This document shows positions 11,489-31,954 of a stretch of 37,990 nucleotides of DNA, piece after piece; position 1 is the stretch's first letter, and each line of letters begins with the position of its first letter. The translations under genes and the position numbers were made by a program. The stretch is from positions 1 through 37,990 of the forward strand of contig JAQCEJ010000048.1 of assembly GCA_027618475.1 (NCBI GenBank). Reading direction: 5' to 3'. The DNA is from Planctomycetota bacterium (GTDB lineage Bacteria; Planctomycetota; Planctomycetia; Planctomycetales; Planctomycetaceae). A model generated the notes under the pieces. That model made no database searches. It was given only the letters and a program-made list of their open reading frames with translations, and was not told the origin of the DNA.

Positions 11489-13105
11489 TTAACGGTTCGG
11501 CCTGCGATCCTCCAGCACAGGCAACCGAAAACAGGCCGCTTCGCGATCGTTGCGAACCAATAAATACGGAGCCGCGAAGGCAGGATGATTCCAGGTGCGG
11601 TCGTGAAGTCCCCGCATCCGGGCGAGTTCGCGAAATTCGTGGGGATCGGCAGCGACGAGAACGATCTCTCCTTGTTCTTCCTGAATCAGCAGTACGTCGC
11701 CGACGCAGATCAGCTGGCCGTATCCGTAACGACCGCGCTTCCACTTTCGCTCTCCAGTCGTGAGATCGACGCAGGTGAGAATGGCCTCGTCCATCCCGTA
11801 AACGTATTCACCGACCTTTACGGCGCTCGAGAATTTCGCTTTGAGATTTCGGCTATGCCAGACTTCGGCGACACTCCAGCGATCGCCGAATTTTTTAACG
11901 TCGAGCAGCGCACAACCCTGGCCGTATCCCGACGCGAGAAAAACATGGTCGGGTCGATTCGCAAAACCGGGGAGCGGAATCGGCTGGCAGACGTTGTTTC
12001 GTTCTTGCGGCTGGCTGATCCAGGTATGGTCCCATAACCGTTCGCCGGTATCAGTGTCATGTCCCGAGAGTCCCGAGGCGTGAAAGATCAGAATCTGGTC
12101 TCCGGCGGCAAACGGTGCCCACTGAGGCGAACTGTATGAGGCGTCGGCGTCTCCCCCCTGCCAGAGGATGTTGCCTGAGCCGGTGTCGTAGCTCACCAGC
12201 GTCGAATTCTTTCCGCCGGGCGAAACGATAACCTGAGTGCCGACGACCAGCGGAGAGCCCGCCATGCCAAAAATGCGATTGTCGATGCCGGCGTCGTCGA
12301 GAATGTTTCGCGACCAGAGCAGTGTGCCGTTCTTGAGATCGAGACAATTCAAGATCCCCGTGGCACCCAGCGAAAAGACGCGGCCTGCGTGAACGGTGGG
12401 GGTGGCGCGAGGTCCGTCGCCGCCGGTCACTTCGCGGAACTGAGTTCGATCACGATGACTCCAGAGTTCGCTCCCGGTCAACAGGTGGTAGCAGGCAACT
12501 ACTTCGTCGTCACCCTGCTGTTCCTGCGTGACGGCAGCGTTGTCAGCAATGGCAAATGACGACCAACCGGTGCCGACAGGCCGTCTCCAGAGGAGTTCGG
12601 GGGGATGCGTTTCCCAATCGGTTTCCAATGCGATGTTCGACACGATTCCCGAGCGATCGATGCCTCGAAATCCAGGATAGTCGGTGTGAGTTTCGGCCGT
12701 ATCGATCGGTGGTGGCGAGAGATCATCGGGAATGCGATGCGAAACCTTTGGGGAGGCCTTTGCCGCAACGGCCGAAAATCGCCAGGCAAAAACCGGCCGG
12801 CCGTCGCCATAGTAGCCTTCGACATAGACCAGCATCCACAACAGCGACTTGCACAGGCAAAACAGACAGGTCGCCTTCACACGATTTCGTGGCGAAAACG
12901 GGGAAACGACGATGATCCAGACCAGAAGTCCCAGTTCGAATGCGGCCCAGGCGTAAAGAACTTCGCGCGACGGTTTGTACGAAAGAACGATCCATCCACG
13001 GGCCAGTGCCAGCAGGCTTCCGCCACCGAGAACCAGCAGAGCGATCAAGCTCGCCCAGCGCCAGAATCGGCTTCGTGCAGTGTCAGTGGGTTGAGCGTCG
13101 AACAT
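11489..13105 (-). CDS. Membrane-anchored PQQ-type beta-propeller protein
   Basis: A 538-residue protein with about three N-terminal membrane helices (about residues 14-36, 49-66 and 76-93) followed by an extracytoplasmic domain. After the YPGFRGIDRSGI motif (about 145), which introduces this domain in many planctomycete proteins, the chain shows repeats of the PQQ-like blade pattern (LLWRRPVGTGWSSFAI, LNCLDLKNGTLLWSRNI, LVSYDTGSGNILWQGG, LTCVDLTTGERKWKRG). Such propellers usually bind proteins or act as scaffolds; there is no sign of a PQQ-dependent dehydrogenase active site. The start at 13105 excludes 25 Pro/Leu-rich codons translated from a purine-tract spacer. The region just upstream carries a G-quadruplex motif and a repeat element. 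Confidence 0.82.
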   Translation of the reverse strand: MFDAQPTDTARSRFWRWASLIALLVLGGGSLLALARGWIVLSYKPSREVLYAWAAFELGLLVWIIVVSPFSPRNRVKATCLFCLCKSLLWMLVYVEGYYGDGRPVFAWRFSAVAAKASPKVSHRIPDDLSPPPIDTAETHTDYPGFRGIDRSGIVSNIALETDWETHPPELLWRRPVGTGWSSFAIADNAAVTQEQQGDDEVVACYHLLTGSELWSHRDRTQFREVTGGDGPRATPTVHAGRVFSLGATGILNCLDLKNGTLLWSRNILDDAGIDNRIFGMAGSPLVVGTQVIVSPGGKNSTLVSYDTGSGNILWQGGDADASYSSPQWAPFAAGDQILIFHASGLSGHDTDTGERLWDHTWISQPQERNNVCQPIPLPGFANRPDHVFLASGYGQGCALLDVKKFGDRWSVAEVWHSRNLKAKFSSAVKVGEYVYGMDEAILTCVDLTTGERKWKRGRYGYGQLICVGDVLLIQEEQGEIVLVAADPHEFRELARMRGLHDRTWNHPAFAAPYLLVRNDREAACFRLPVLEDRRPNR

Positions 13106-13135: not shown

Positions 13136-13166
13136 GGGGGGGAGAGGGAGATGGGGAGTGGGGGGG
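13136..13166 (+). other. G-quadruplex motif upstream of the propeller gene
   Basis: Four G-runs on the plus strand (13136-13142, 13146-13148, 13153-13156, 13160-13166) are separated by loops of 3, 4 and 3 bases, which fits the canonical G-quadruplex pattern. The G-rich strand is the template strand of the minus-strand gene starting at 13105. It lies directly beside the left end of the first repeat copy. Confidence 0.5.
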
Positions 13167-13175
13167 AGCAAGAGT

Positions 13176-13339
13176 TGCATCCGTTAAATGGTGGTGGTCT
13201 ACCGGGTGGCCGGGACAGCTTTGTGTCCCGGTCGCGCAGCGATAAGAGGACTTCTCAGCCGAGGTCTTCGACCTCGATCCGGCCTCACAGAGGCCAGCGA
13301 CAGAGGCATAACGGAGGAAACCACCATTTAACGGATGCA
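13176..13339. repeat. 164-bp interspersed repeat, copy 1 (MITE-like, terminal inverted repeats)
   Basis: The element is bounded by a perfect 20-bp inverted repeat (TGCATCCGTTAAATGG... at 13176-13195 and its complement at 13320-13339). Inside are three hairpins: CCGGGACA/TGTCCCGG (13210-13217, 13224-13231), CGAGGTC/GACCTCG (13260-13266, 13270-13276) and GGCCTC/GAGGCC (13281-13286, 13290-13295). A 12-base direct repeat GGGGAGCAAGAG flanks it (13163-13174 and 13343-13354), like a target-site duplication. A second copy of identical length lies at 27085-27248 with 142 of 164 positions identical (hand count). It holds no credible gene. It fills most of the 259-base space between the propeller and sulfatase genes. 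Confidence 0.9.
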
Positions 13340-13364
13340 CCTGGGGAGCAAGAGAATATCACAA

Positions 13365-25832: not shown

Positions 25833-27077
25833 ATGCAATTGACTCGACGCGATCTTCTGCTGGGATCTACCGTGTGGGGTTGTGCCGCGGCGATGCCGTC
25901 GGTCTTTCGGCGTGCGGCGTGGGCTGCTCCCCCAGCCGATGCCGCCGGCGCGAAAGATACCATTCTGGTCGTCATTCAGCTGAGCGGCGGAAACGACGGT
26001 CTGAACACCGTCATTCCGTTTGCCGATCCGGCGTATGCCGCCGCCCGTCCGGTGCTCAAGCAAACCAAAGACAAGCTCGTATCGGTCAACGACGACGTTG
26101 GTTTGCATCCTGCACTGACGGGTTTCGGTCAATTGCTCGAAAATTCACAACTTTCGATCGTGCAGGGAGTCGGTTATCCGCAACCGAACCGTTCGCACTT
26201 CTCGTCGATGGACATCTGGCATAAAGCAAGCCGCGAAAAAGAGCAGACGTACGGCTGGCTCGGCCGCACGTCGCCGCTCGTCGGTACGTCGGGGGCATCG
26301 CTGTTTATCGGCGAAGGACAGGCCCCGCTCGCGTTGTACGGTGCCACGGGGCATCCGCCGACGATTCGTCATCTCGACGATTTTCAGCTTCGGGTTGCGG
26401 CCGGCGAGAACGACGATGTCCGCAAACGCGAACTGATTCAGCAGTTTGCCAGCCGCAACCTCAAATCGAAAAGCCCGCTCAACAAACTTGTACAGGAATC
26501 GGCTCTCGAAACGTATCGGGCGTCAGAACGCATTCGCGAAGCGACGCAAAACTACCAGACCCCCGTCGCGTATCCCGACACCGAACTGGGACAACGATTG
26601 AAGCTGATCGCACAACTGATCAACGGCGGCATTTCGGAACGTATTTTCTACACGTCTCTCGACGGCTTCGACACGCACGCCGCCCAGTTGCCGTTGCACG
26701 AAAGTCTGATGTCGACGCTTTCCGGCGCGGTTGCAGCCTTTCAGCAGGATGTGAAACATCATGGCCACGAAAAACGGGTCGTCACGATGACGTTTTCCGA
26801 ATTCGGCCGTCGGGTTAAGGAAAACGGTTCGCTCGGCACCGATCACGGGGCCGCTTCGCAGATGTTTTTCATCGGCGAAGCGATCATCCCGGGAGTGATT
26901 GGCGCCCATCCGTCGCTCACCGATCTCGATGACGGCGATCTCAAGTTTCACACCGACTTTCGTAGCATCTACGCGACCGTTCTCGAAGAATGGCTCGGCG
27001 TCGACAGTGTCCAGGTTCTCGGCGAACGATTTGCACCGGTGAAATTGTTCGCCCATCAACAGCAGTCCGTTTCGTAA
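25833..27077 (+). CDS. DUF1501 protein with Tat signal
   Basis: A 414-residue member of the DUF1501 family, which is distantly related to the alkaline phosphatase/sulfatase fold. The N-terminus carries a twin-arginine export signal (TRRDLLLGS followed by a hydrophobic Ala/Trp-rich stretch, cleavage near 32), so the folded protein crosses the membrane. Core motifs are LVVIQLSGGNDGLNTVIPF (about 46-64), SHFSSMDIWHKA, SLDGFDTHAAQ (about 280) and TFSEFGRRVKENGSLGTDHGAASQ (about 320-345), the last likely to hold the metal-binding His and Asp. The start is the second ATG: AGGAG at 25821-25825 is one base from the ATG at 25827 but seven from the ATG at 25833. It pairs with the DUF1800 gene just upstream. 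Confidence 0.9.
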   Translation: MQLTRRDLLLGSTVWGCAAAMPSVFRRAAWAAPPADAAGAKDTILVVIQLSGGNDGLNTVIPFADPAYAAARPVLKQTKDKLVSVNDDVGLHPALTGFGQLLENSQLSIVQGVGYPQPNRSHFSSMDIWHKASREKEQTYGWLGRTSPLVGTSGASLFIGEGQAPLALYGATGHPPTIRHLDDFQLRVAAGENDDVRKRELIQQFASRNLKSKSPLNKLVQESALETYRASERIREATQNYQTPVAYPDTELGQRLKLIAQLINGGISERIFYTSLDGFDTHAAQLPLHESLMSTLSGAVAAFQQDVKHHGHEKRVVTMTFSEFGRRVKENGSLGTDHGAASQMFFIGEAIIPGVIGAHPSLTDLDDGDLKFHTDFRSIYATVLEEWLGVDSVQVLGERFAPVKLFAHQQQSVS

Positions 27078-27084
27078 CCGTGGG

Positions 27085-27248
27085 TGCATCCGATAAATGG
27101 TGGAAGTTACTCGGGTGGCCAGGACAGCTTTGTGTCCCGGTCGCTTGGCGACAAGAGGTTTTCTCAGCCGAGGTCTTCGACCTCGATCCGGCCTCACAGC
27201 GGCCAGCTACAAAGGCATAACGGAAGGGACCACCAGTTAACGGAGGCA
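27085..27248. repeat. 164-bp interspersed repeat, copy 2 (MITE-like)
   Basis: It has the same length as copy 1 at 13176-13339 and aligns without gaps at 142 of 164 positions. The terminal inverted repeats are imperfect here (three mismatches over 22 bases). Hairpin 2 (CGAGGTC/GACCTCG) is fully conserved; hairpin 1 has one A-C mismatch; hairpin 3 is shortened to GGCC/GGCC. A 9-base direct repeat CGTAACCGT flanks the element (27073-27081 and 27251-27259). It sits between the DUF1501 stop codon and the LOG-family gene; the left direct repeat overlaps the end of the DUF1501 gene (its stop TAA is inside). Confidence 0.9.
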
Positions 27249-27360
27249 CCCGTAACCGTTCTCTGAACGGCTCGTCTTTGATTTGCCGCGGGCAATCTCG
27301 TACGATTCAAGATTCATCAACTTTCGAACCATCGTACGACTCAACGGCGAAACATTGTTC

Positions 27361-30580: not shown

Positions 30581-31399
30581 TCAGATATCAGCCGAAGGTT
30601 CGGCGGACTGACCGAGAATGCGCTTTTCGTTCAACACTTTATCGAAATCCAGAGCATGTTTTTCGAGCATGACGATAGCAGCACCGAAATCGCCGCCATA
30701 ATTGAGGTAACGGGCGCCACGGTCGTAGAAATGTTTCACGAGTTCAGGGCTGGCGACGGGCAATCCCCAGTTCTTGCCATGTTTTTTCGCGGCGGCGGCA
30801 ACGCGGTCGATGGCGTCTTCAAAAGTCCATCCCAGATTCTTCGCGTGCTTGATCCGCAACTGCAAATCAGCCGGACCGATGAACAAGACGTCGACTCCCT
30901 CGACGGCGGCGATTTTCTCGACATTCTCGACCGCTTCGATCGTTTCGATCTGCACGGTGAGAAACGTTTCGCGGTTCGCCTCGTCGGTGTAGCCGGGCCC
31001 TCCCTGAATGATGAAATCGGTATCCAACCCTGCGCCATCCAAGCCGCGATCGCCGATCGGCGGAAACTTCAGCGACTGGGCCAGCATGTGGGCTTTTTCA
31101 GGAGTCGAGACATGCGGCACCATGATGCCGCTGGCCCCGTCTTCGAGATAGCGGTACAACCGTGTCTTTTCGAGTGTCGGCACGCGGACCATGCAATCGA
31201 TGTCGAAGAGGTGGAAAAAGGCTAAAATCGCCTGCACTTCGCGCTGTTCCATCGCTCGGTGTTCGAGGTCGAGCCAGATGCAATCGAACCCTTGATGGGC
31301 AGCGTGCCGCACGAACCCGGGGTTTAATAAACCGCCGAGAGCGACAGAACGAACGGGACGACCTGCACGAAGTTTGGCTAACGTCTTGCTGCGGCGCAC
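30581..31399 (-). CDS. HpcH/HpaI-family aldolase
   Basis: A 272-residue class II pyruvate-type aldolase of the family that includes 4-hydroxy-2-oxoheptanedioate aldolase. Residues aligned with the E. coli enzyme are His47 (DLEHRAM, catalytic base), Arg72 (MVRVP), Glu152 (QIETIEAVEN, metal ligand) and Asp178 (FIGPADLQ, metal ligand). All are present, so the enzyme should be active on a 2-oxo-acid aldol; the specific substrate is not clear. The start codon is GTG with AGGAG nine bases upstream. It sits alone between the lipoprotein gene and the repeat-containing spacer; no companion catabolic gene is seen. Confidence 0.88.
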   Translation of the reverse strand: MRRSKTLAKLRAGRPVRSVALGGLLNPGFVRHAAHQGFDCIWLDLEHRAMEQREVQAILAFFHLFDIDCMVRVPTLEKTRLYRYLEDGASGIMVPHVSTPEKAHMLAQSLKFPPIGDRGLDGAGLDTDFIIQGGPGYTDEANRETFLTVQIETIEAVENVEKIAAVEGVDVLFIGPADLQLRIKHAKNLGWTFEDAIDRVAAAAKKHGKNWGLPVASPELVKHFYDRGARYLNYGGDFGAAIVMLEKHALDFDKVLNEKRILGQSAEPSADI

Positions 31400-31501
31400 G
31401 AAAGAGGCTCCTCAAAAATGCCGGGATCTCACGGATTTACGATGCCCCGACATCATAGCAGCCTCTCCCCCCTGGGTGTCCAGCATGGGGCACGGTAATT
31501 T

Positions 31502-31529
31502 GGGGATTGGGGATTGGGGCTCGGGAGGG
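31502..31529 (+). other. G-quadruplex motif beside the partial repeat copy
   Basis: G-runs at 31502-31505, 31509-31512, 31516-31519, 31523-31525 and 31527-31529 have loops of 3, 3, 3 and 1 bases. The first three runs form a GGGGATT tandem repeat. It abuts the partial repeat copy at 31527-31572, mirroring the arrangement at copy 1. Confidence 0.5.
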
Positions 31530-31572
31530 TAGCCCGGACAGCTTTGTGTCCGGGTCGCGCAGCGATAAGAGG
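31527..31572. repeat. Partial copy 3 of the interspersed repeat
   Basis: It matches 43 of 46 positions of copy 1 (13204-13249). The first hairpin is CCCGGACA (31533-31540) / TGTCCGGG (31547-31554). Compared with copy 1, a G-C pair became C-G on both sides of the stem, so pairing is preserved. The terminal inverted repeats and hairpins 2 and 3 are missing. A 10-base direct repeat AATTTGGGGA lies on each side (31497-31506 and 31587-31596), though not directly abutting. Confidence 0.8.
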
Positions 31573-31603
31573 AAATCGACCGTTCGAATTTGGGGACTTC
31601 CGC

Positions 31604-31954
31604 TCACGCTGTGCGCTGTTGCCACGCTGGCCCAATGAACAAGAAAAAAATCATCCAGAACAAAATCGATGACACCATCGGCACTAAAGCCGTATGAATC
31701 CACGCTCGCAAATAGTCATGTCCCAATTCGGCAATGATTGGTTGTACCAGATCATCGCCAGGATGAATGAGGATTGCCGTCCATTCACACGATAAAAAGA
31801 CAGGAATCAAACCGAGCCATCTGTTGAAAAGCGAGACCGCGAAAATAATCCCCGCCATCACAAGAGAAAACGTGATCTGTGACGACCACATTTCTTCGAC
31901 GCTCGGCATCTTGTCGACGATTTCGGCGAGAATGGAAAACGACGAAAATGCCAT
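31604..31954 (-). CDS. Hypothetical membrane protein
   Basis: I do not recognise this 116-residue protein. It has three hydrophobic segments (about 28-44, 46-62 and 90-112), the last very strongly hydrophobic, and short polar loops with a His-containing stretch (GHDYLRAWIHT). It begins 23 bases downstream of the stop of the lnt gene, in the same direction, and so is probably cotranscribed with it. A weak GGATAAG lies upstream of its ATG. The partial repeat and a G-quadruplex motif lie just beyond its 3' end. Confidence 0.5.
   Translation of the reverse strand: MAFSSFSILAEIVDKMPSVEEMWSSQITFSLVMAGIIFAVSLFNRWLGLIPVFLSCEWTAILIHPGDDLVQPIIAELGHDYLRAWIHTALVPMVSSILFWMIFFLFIGPAWQQRTA

Follow-up and report, generated by a model that had tools for sequence, protein, structure and literature searches.

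REP-type hairpins within a probable ISKra4-type miniature element family of a planctomycete genome

A short non-coding unit with terminal inverted repeats occurs twice in the window, a stretch of 37,990 nucleotides that is the entire contig C78 of its planctomycete genome (G000; 5.93 Mb in 218 contigs). The locus raises the question of which enzyme moved the unit, and of what the hairpins between its ends are. ISKra4-family enzymes are Mutator-like DDE transposases, and RAYT/Y1 proteins are HUH enzymes of a transposase system that acts on single-stranded DNA. Comparison of sequences makes it very probable that the unit is a non-autonomous ISKra4-family MITE whose interior is filled with REP/REPIN hairpins of RAYT/Y1 (HUH) transposases encoded in the same genome. 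A preliminary description of this DNA had read the unit as a transposed MITE. Further copies with unrelated 9-bp duplications support transposition, but the description missed both a second subfamily with the same ends and the RAYT-associated REP nature of the hairpins.

Limits, target sites and copies of the element

The preliminary description gave a 164-bp unit at two sites. Its sequence is as described, but the limits fall 2-4 bp short at the ends. The perfect 20-bp inverted repeat proposed for copy 1 is present at 13176-13195 and 13320-13339, with GGGGAGCAAGAG flanking both sides, and the genome-wide consensus of the terminal repeat starts GGGTGCATCCGTTAAATGGTGG, 3-4 bases outside this core. 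The complete element, which we call family A, is 170 bp long in consensus. Copy 1 has 171 bp and starts GAGTTGCAT, one base longer than the consensus, and copy 2 has 169 bp. The three internal hairpins noted in copy 1 are also present and correspond to modules that we term REP1, REP2 and REP3. The features of the two copies are as follows.

13163-13171, no strand: left target-site duplication GGGGAGCAA (9 bp) of copy 1, assigned from the sequence and the genome-wide 9-bp statistic
13172-13342, plus strand: MITE family A, copy 1 (171 bp)
13176-13195, plus strand: left terminal inverted repeat core, perfect over 20 bp with 13320-13339
13204-13249, plus strand: REP1 unit, a GT(A/G)G-headed hairpin with the tail TCGCGCAGCGATAAGAGG
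13259-13276, minus strand: REP3 hairpin (CCGAGGTCTTCGACCTCG), which forms a REPIN-like head-to-head doublet with REP2
13279-13301, minus strand: REP2 hairpin (GTCGCTGGCCTCTGTGAGGCCGG), with relatives on both sides of the RAYT gene at G000:C172
13320-13339, minus strand: right terminal inverted repeat core
13343-13351, no strand: right target-site duplication GGGGAGCAA of copy 1
27073-27081, no strand: left target-site duplication CGTAACCGT of copy 2
27082-27250, plus strand: MITE family A, copy 2 (169 bp)
27115-27140, plus strand: REP1 core in copy 2
27188-27210, minus strand: REP2 core in copy 2
27251-27259, no strand: right target-site duplication CGTAACCGT of copy 2

The length of the duplication was determined by pairing facing terminal repeats 120-460 bp apart in loci fetched from the same genome. 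This yielded 28 elements with at most 6 mismatches of 19 at each end, at most 9 in sum, and 25 bp of flank present; the set excludes copies with a lost or damaged end and retains a 457-bp pairing at L021 that is probably false. Identity between the flanks is 0.718 at 9 bp versus 0.254-0.315 at lengths of 4-8 and 10-14, and 2000 permutations gave a maximum of 0.413 at 9 bp. In 19 of the 28 elements at least seven of the nine positions match in exact register. The other nine, which include both window copies, carry no in-register 9-bp duplication. In each window copy one end is longer or shorter by a base, which shifts the register, and once a one-base offset is allowed both have a perfect 9-bp duplication (GGGGAGCAA and CGTAACCGT), the second of which had already been recognized as the duplication belonging to copy 2. 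The 12-base flanking repeat earlier proposed for copy 1 does lie on both sides of it, but flank identity over 12 bp is at background among the 28 elements. A 12-bp duplication is therefore rejected, and the GAG that follows both copies of GGGGAGCAA, stretching 9 bp to 12, is taken as a coincidence of sequence.

A search of the same genome with the unit returned more copies, with at least 43 DNA matches, many of them partial (40 of 102 candidates scored). Its terminal 22 bases occur with no more than three mismatches at 70 sites, compared with none for a reversed control. Two subfamilies have these ends in common: family A and the 291-bp family B, for which at least 77 DNA matches were found in this genome, many partial or overlapping (40 of 69 candidates scored). 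The elements are thus short (170 or 291 bp), non-coding and multi-copy, with terminal inverted repeats and a duplication of constant length (9 bp), as is typical of MITEs. The consensus sequences were built from 14 near-complete A copies and 4 B copies. Those of A are 84.1-96.5% identical to their consensus and those of B 93.8-95.5%, which indicates that they are no longer fresh. Six contigs (C4, C12, C59, C60, C136 and C138) terminate within an element, C59 on both sides, which suggests that near-identical copies broke the assembly. C59 (L124), 8.3 kb long, starts and stops about 70 bp inside family A elements. No match to the element was found among plasmids, and viral contigs gave 0 matches.

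A 421-bp chimera of the two families, A::B, lies at L118:744-1164 (G000:C50:93643-94063) and is bounded by an exact 9-bp duplication, GTGACTACC. This composite unit therefore moved by its outer ends. At another locus (L123:785-1008; G000:C203:50784-51007) about 12 bp separate a family B element from a family A element that comes after it, and the B element has no in-register duplication around it.

Insertions appear in spaces between genes. For the 19 elements with at least seven of nine duplicated positions, a set that contains neither window copy, the median length of the longest ORF spanning the joined site is 96 amino acids, versus 285 at random places in the same loci. Insertions thus avoid genes, with 9 of the 19 still having a longest ORF of at least 100 amino acids across the joined site. 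By eye, the longest empty-site ORFs at five loci look like leader regions before a TolB-like and a PadR-like gene, or like unlikely ORFs, and no clear case of gene interruption was seen among these five. Copy 1 follows the end of a sulfatase gene at a distance of 22 bp and precedes a PQQ-repeat gene. The longest reading of the latter starts inside the element, and by eye a start near 13105 looks likelier. Copy 2 sits at the stop codon of a DUF1501 gene and precedes a lysine-decarboxylase-family (LOG-like) gene; its left duplication CGTAACCGT contains the TAA stop (27075-27077) of the DUF1501 gene.

As DNA, the element is predicted to fold into one long hairpin at -51.7 kcal/mol versus a shuffle mean of -25.3 (z -8.2). 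A strong fold and an intergenic placement are what might be expected of a host-made structural repeat, such as an ERIC-like terminator or an RNA element, that is kept by selection and is not mobile. However, the copies carry unrelated 9-bp duplications, Rfam gives nothing at gathering score (one match, 17.7 bits versus 55), and the ends are common to insertion sequences, which leaves this explanation hardly credible. Under the MITE explanation, an element that is read through could still fold into one long hairpin, which between genes would probably be tolerated as a spacer or a 3'-end structure. It is a plausible prediction that it acts as a folded 3' end.

Terminal repeats and ISKra4 insertion sequences in relatives

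The terminal repeat leads to insertion sequences in other genera. When 397 genomes of the class were surveyed with a 19-base end, a single genome, G024, was listed in which two ends face each other, 1452 bp apart. The ORF between them encodes a protein (P0001) that scores 221.8 bits with the NCBIfam ISKra4 model NF033572 (cut-off 205). Insertion sequences with both ends, 1385-1454 bp long, are present in G024, G311, G340, G029 and G103 (two copies). The proteins of G311, G340, G103 and G029 are 53-69% identical to P0001, to which the NF033572 scan was confined, and the G029 reading frame is broken in two. Further P0001-like genes in G319 and G015 have more divergent ends (6-7 mismatches of 22). 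In all, 17 of 170 genomes of the family encode P0001-like proteins (E 1e-20 or better). Thus the full-length transposon with matching ends that the preliminary description proposed to look for exists in relatives, with an ISKra4-family transposase inside.

The target sites of these six full-length insertion sequences are less uniform. Both G103 copies have an exact 9-bp duplication and the G029 element has one matching at eight of nine positions. The other three (G024, G311 and G340) lack an in-register 9-bp duplication; the G340 element has a 10-bp repeat out of register, and those of G024 and G311 have no duplication. Families A and B have little in common with the insertion sequences of four of the five genomes except the ends, which match over 22-26 bp at 87-96% identity. 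The G103 ends match A and B over 11 bp only.

ISKra4 ends begin GGG. The group to which they belong (p-MULT 4, Mutator-like DDE) is described as having terminal repeats of 18-39 bp, duplications of 8 or 9 bp and hosts that include Planctomycetes (PMC3942029). Families A and B resemble ISKra4 insertion sequences in their imperfect end repeats of about 20 bp, their 9-bp duplication and the occurrence of the same ends in relatives. Unlike them, they are MITEs that lack a transposase gene and have interiors unrelated to those of the insertion sequences compared. Both the ISKra4-family assignment of the partner transposase and a duplication of 8 or 9 bp point to derivation from this group.

A more conventional derivative is found in G311, where a 262-bp MITE (L169:1228-1489) matches the insertion sequence of the same genome over 211 bp (98.1% identity) and 45 bp (100%). 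By this comparison it is an internal-deletion derivative of that insertion sequence, so ends of the ISKra4 type do make MITEs. Families A and B are likewise short and non-coding with insertion-sequence terminal repeats. Whereas the G311 MITE keeps long end stretches of the insertion sequence (98-100% identical), A and B keep only the terminal repeat, together with REP arrays.

An autonomous element with common ends was thus found only in relatives of other genera, and the genomes searched included none of the same genus. Neither the family model nor a protein search with P0001 detected an ISKra4 transposase in the 218 contigs of the genome itself. Family A copies therefore look orphaned, the supply of transposase has probably ended in this lineage, and supply in trans is inferred from relatives of other genera. 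The transposase may since have been lost from the lineage, or it may be hidden in assembly gaps. When present, it would have recognized the roughly 22-bp ends in trans, mobilized the whole segment that they enclose and inserted it at 9-bp staggered cuts in intergenic DNA.

Isolated matches to the terminal repeat carry little information. Single matches with two mismatches occur in 32 of the 397 genomes, our own included, and are near chance level because a reversed control matches 22 genomes (by eye). The relatives used here are confined to genomes in which several copies are present or an insertion sequence was checked. A scan of named genomes with the terminal repeat gave nine stretches in two MAGs of Planctomycetaceae, eight in OFTM354 and one in S139_18, which correspond to G319 and G029.

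Interior hairpins and the RAYT/Y1 genes of the genome

The interior of family A contains a 46-bp unit, made up of a hairpin and its tail, and two further hairpins placed head to head. The first hairpin, REP1, has 45 sites in the genome and the second, REP2, has 37, versus 0 each for controls; some of these sites lie outside any MITE. The window itself holds a solitary REP1 hairpin with the tail TCGCGCAGCGATAAGAGG at 31529-31554 (plus strand), which matches the outside form GTAGCCCGGACAGCTTTGTGTCCGGG perfectly. The head of REP1 is GTAG, mostly GTGG inside MITEs, and that of REP2 is GTAG, with GTCG in copy 1. In most cases, what distinguishes the MITE and solitary forms of REP1 is a change on both paired arms of the stem (CCGGG / CCCGG versus CCCGG / CCGGG), which preserves the hairpin; the solitary REP1 at C182:23478 has the MITE form.

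There are 14 matches to Y1 transposases (PF01797) in the genome, and the hairpins of family A lie beside two of the genes. The REP1 unit at 13204-13249 is 95.7% identical over 46 bp to one side of a RAYT gene on C44. The whole 46-bp unit lies on that side and an inverted hairpin on the other (scores of 82 and 59). The Y1 gene of C172 has REP2 on both sides, inverted. The proteins of C44 and C172 pass the RAYT model NF047646 with 108 and 92.5 bits (cut-off 80). Both genes are thus RAYT genes with the same GTAG-headed palindrome inverted on their two sides. The C44 locus (L217:549-1100), a complete RAYT gene between inverted REP1 hairpins, is well suited as a model of this genome's REP system.

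Family B resembles the flanks of other Y1 genes, on C57, C95 and C109. Its left half is similar to the C57 left flank (score 89) and its right half to the C95 right flank (69), over about 100 bp each. Alignments in the opposite orientation exist as well, one of them better (74 versus 51 at the C57 right flank), because the arrays are palindromic and inverted. The Y1 proteins of C57 and C95 are PF01797 members that fall below the cut-offs of NF047646 and NF033573. At these two loci (L187 and L188) the Y1 genes, which are below the RAYT and IS200 cut-offs, lie between arrays of three GC-rich hairpins, and their transposases may belong to the Planctomycetes-type Y1 class 3, as that class is outlined in PMC6006769.

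Alignment scores of at least 40 are reached for family A by 4 of the 28 Y1 flanks (both of C44 and both of C172) and for family B by 5 of 28 (both of C57, both of C95 and the left of C109), compared with 0 of 313 control windows in each case. Shuffled interiors, 200 for each family, reach at most 31 (A) and 32 (B). The control windows are mostly coding DNA, taken from beside MITEs and from the window; they exclude at least 60 bp beside elements, window positions 31301-31700 (the known solitary REP) and loci L023, L027 and L028. The shuffles do not keep palindromes.

Could the Y1 enzymes have moved the whole unit? TIRtrons, associated with TIRYT transposases in the account given in PMC3733652, are Y1 genes set between long inverted repeats, and a RAYT/TIRYT-type element of this kind would be mobilized as a unit by the HUH (Y1) transposases of its internal REPs. 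The resemblance is real, as this genome combines inverted repeats with 14 Y1 matches, and the MITE interiors match the flanks of five Y1 genes. However, the terminal repeat is absent from the 14 Y1 loci, searched mostly within 1.5 kb, where the best matches have 7-10 mismatches of 22. The inverted repeats therefore do not flank Y1 genes, unlike those of TIRtrons as described in PMC3733652, and they are of ISKra4 type; the same ends also bound ISKra4 insertion sequences. Single-strand HUH transposition is not known to make a 9-bp duplication. With a 9-bp duplication present and no terminal repeat at Y1 genes, mobilization of the whole unit by RAYTs is rejected as a very improbable explanation.

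In the ISKra4 MITE model, RAYTs would not move the whole unit, and the REP arrays would be passengers. They would have been captured either when REP DNA came to lie between two terminal repeats or by entry of REPs into an older MITE. The latter route, in which RAYT activity inserted REP modules into pre-existing ISKra4 MITEs, is a variant of the same model that concerns only how the cargo entered, and we regard it as possible but rather unlikely. In its favor, the REP1 unit and the REP2-REP3 doublet each occur free-standing, also in G013 and G051, as modules in their own right, and modules from more than one Y1 system come together in each family. Nevertheless, both halves of family B (about 100 bp with three hairpins each) resemble Y1 flanks, as does a 230-bp stretch of an element in G319. 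Stretches of this size make the capture of blocks look likelier than single REP insertions. Moreover, a shortened copy (L018) lacks 15 bp, and by eye this deletion interrupts REP3 instead of taking out a complete module.

Other genera and known systems

In G013 and G051 the REP modules are free-standing, as single REPs or GTAG doublets, with free doublets of the REP2-REP3 type in G051, and neither genome has a match to the terminal repeat. None of the 18 loci with free modules (in G013, G051 and G047) contains a RAYT like that of C44 or C172.

Six MITEs with ISKra4-type ends from three genomes of other genera (G319, G015 and G311; two are of one family) were compared with 30 Y1 loci there. One of them, a 367-bp element of G319 (L158:1185-1551), has an exact 9-bp duplication, GGTTCCGTT, and its positions 85-314 align to hairpin arrays beside G319 Y1 genes (scores of 146 at L234, 106 at L240 and 63 at L238). 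Its interior also scores 50 with one G311 Y1 locus, and other comparisons give at most 37. Because the L158 hairpins and those of A and B have different sequences, the association of ISKra4 ends with REPs probably arose at least twice or was remade, as far as these sequences indicate. The arrangement at the L234 Y1 gene is similar to the hairpin-array flanks of C57 and C95.

The other five of the six MITEs show no similarity to the Y1 loci, and REP cargo as a general rule is rejected on these grounds. They include further families with ISKra4 ends and interiors unrelated to Y1 loci, namely L163 and L165 of G015 (about 200 bp) and L155 and L161 of G319 (about 372 bp).

GTAG REPs are reported from Planctomycetes, with Y1 genes flanked by REPs or inverted repeats (PMC3733652). 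The hairpins described here are like the REP/REPIN and RAYT systems presented in PMC3733652 and PMC6006769 in being GTAG palindromes, in forming doublets and in lying inverted around RAYT genes. They are unlike those systems in that the REPs here are enclosed in a unit with DDE-type ends and a 9-bp duplication. ISKra4-type elements and REP/RAYT systems are both known; what seems new is the placement of DDE-transposon ends around the repeats of HUH transposases. Among the open-licence PMC papers returned by literature searches, no title or abstract reports ISKra4 MITEs with REP cargo.

A bolder proposal is that the two enzymes are allied, such that ISKra4 ends in Planctomycetaceae repeatedly acquire RAYT/Y1 REP arrays because the arrays help the MITE. 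We consider this doubtful. If it is true, the arrays may, for example, make insertions tolerable as folded 3' ends or provide a second route of movement or repair through RAYT, and the spread of REP arrays would rely both on their own HUH enzyme and on double-strand transposition by a DDE enzyme.

The elements described here bear on the way in which REP sequences spread. At the level of sequence they reveal a second vehicle, in which DDE-type ends with a 9-bp duplication take REP/REPIN modules to new sites in two genera, with different modules in each. They also show that unrelated cargo can be built into MITEs whose ends are the same. Finally, the ISKra4 transposases of relatives give a name to the enzyme that likely acted in trans on the orphan copies.
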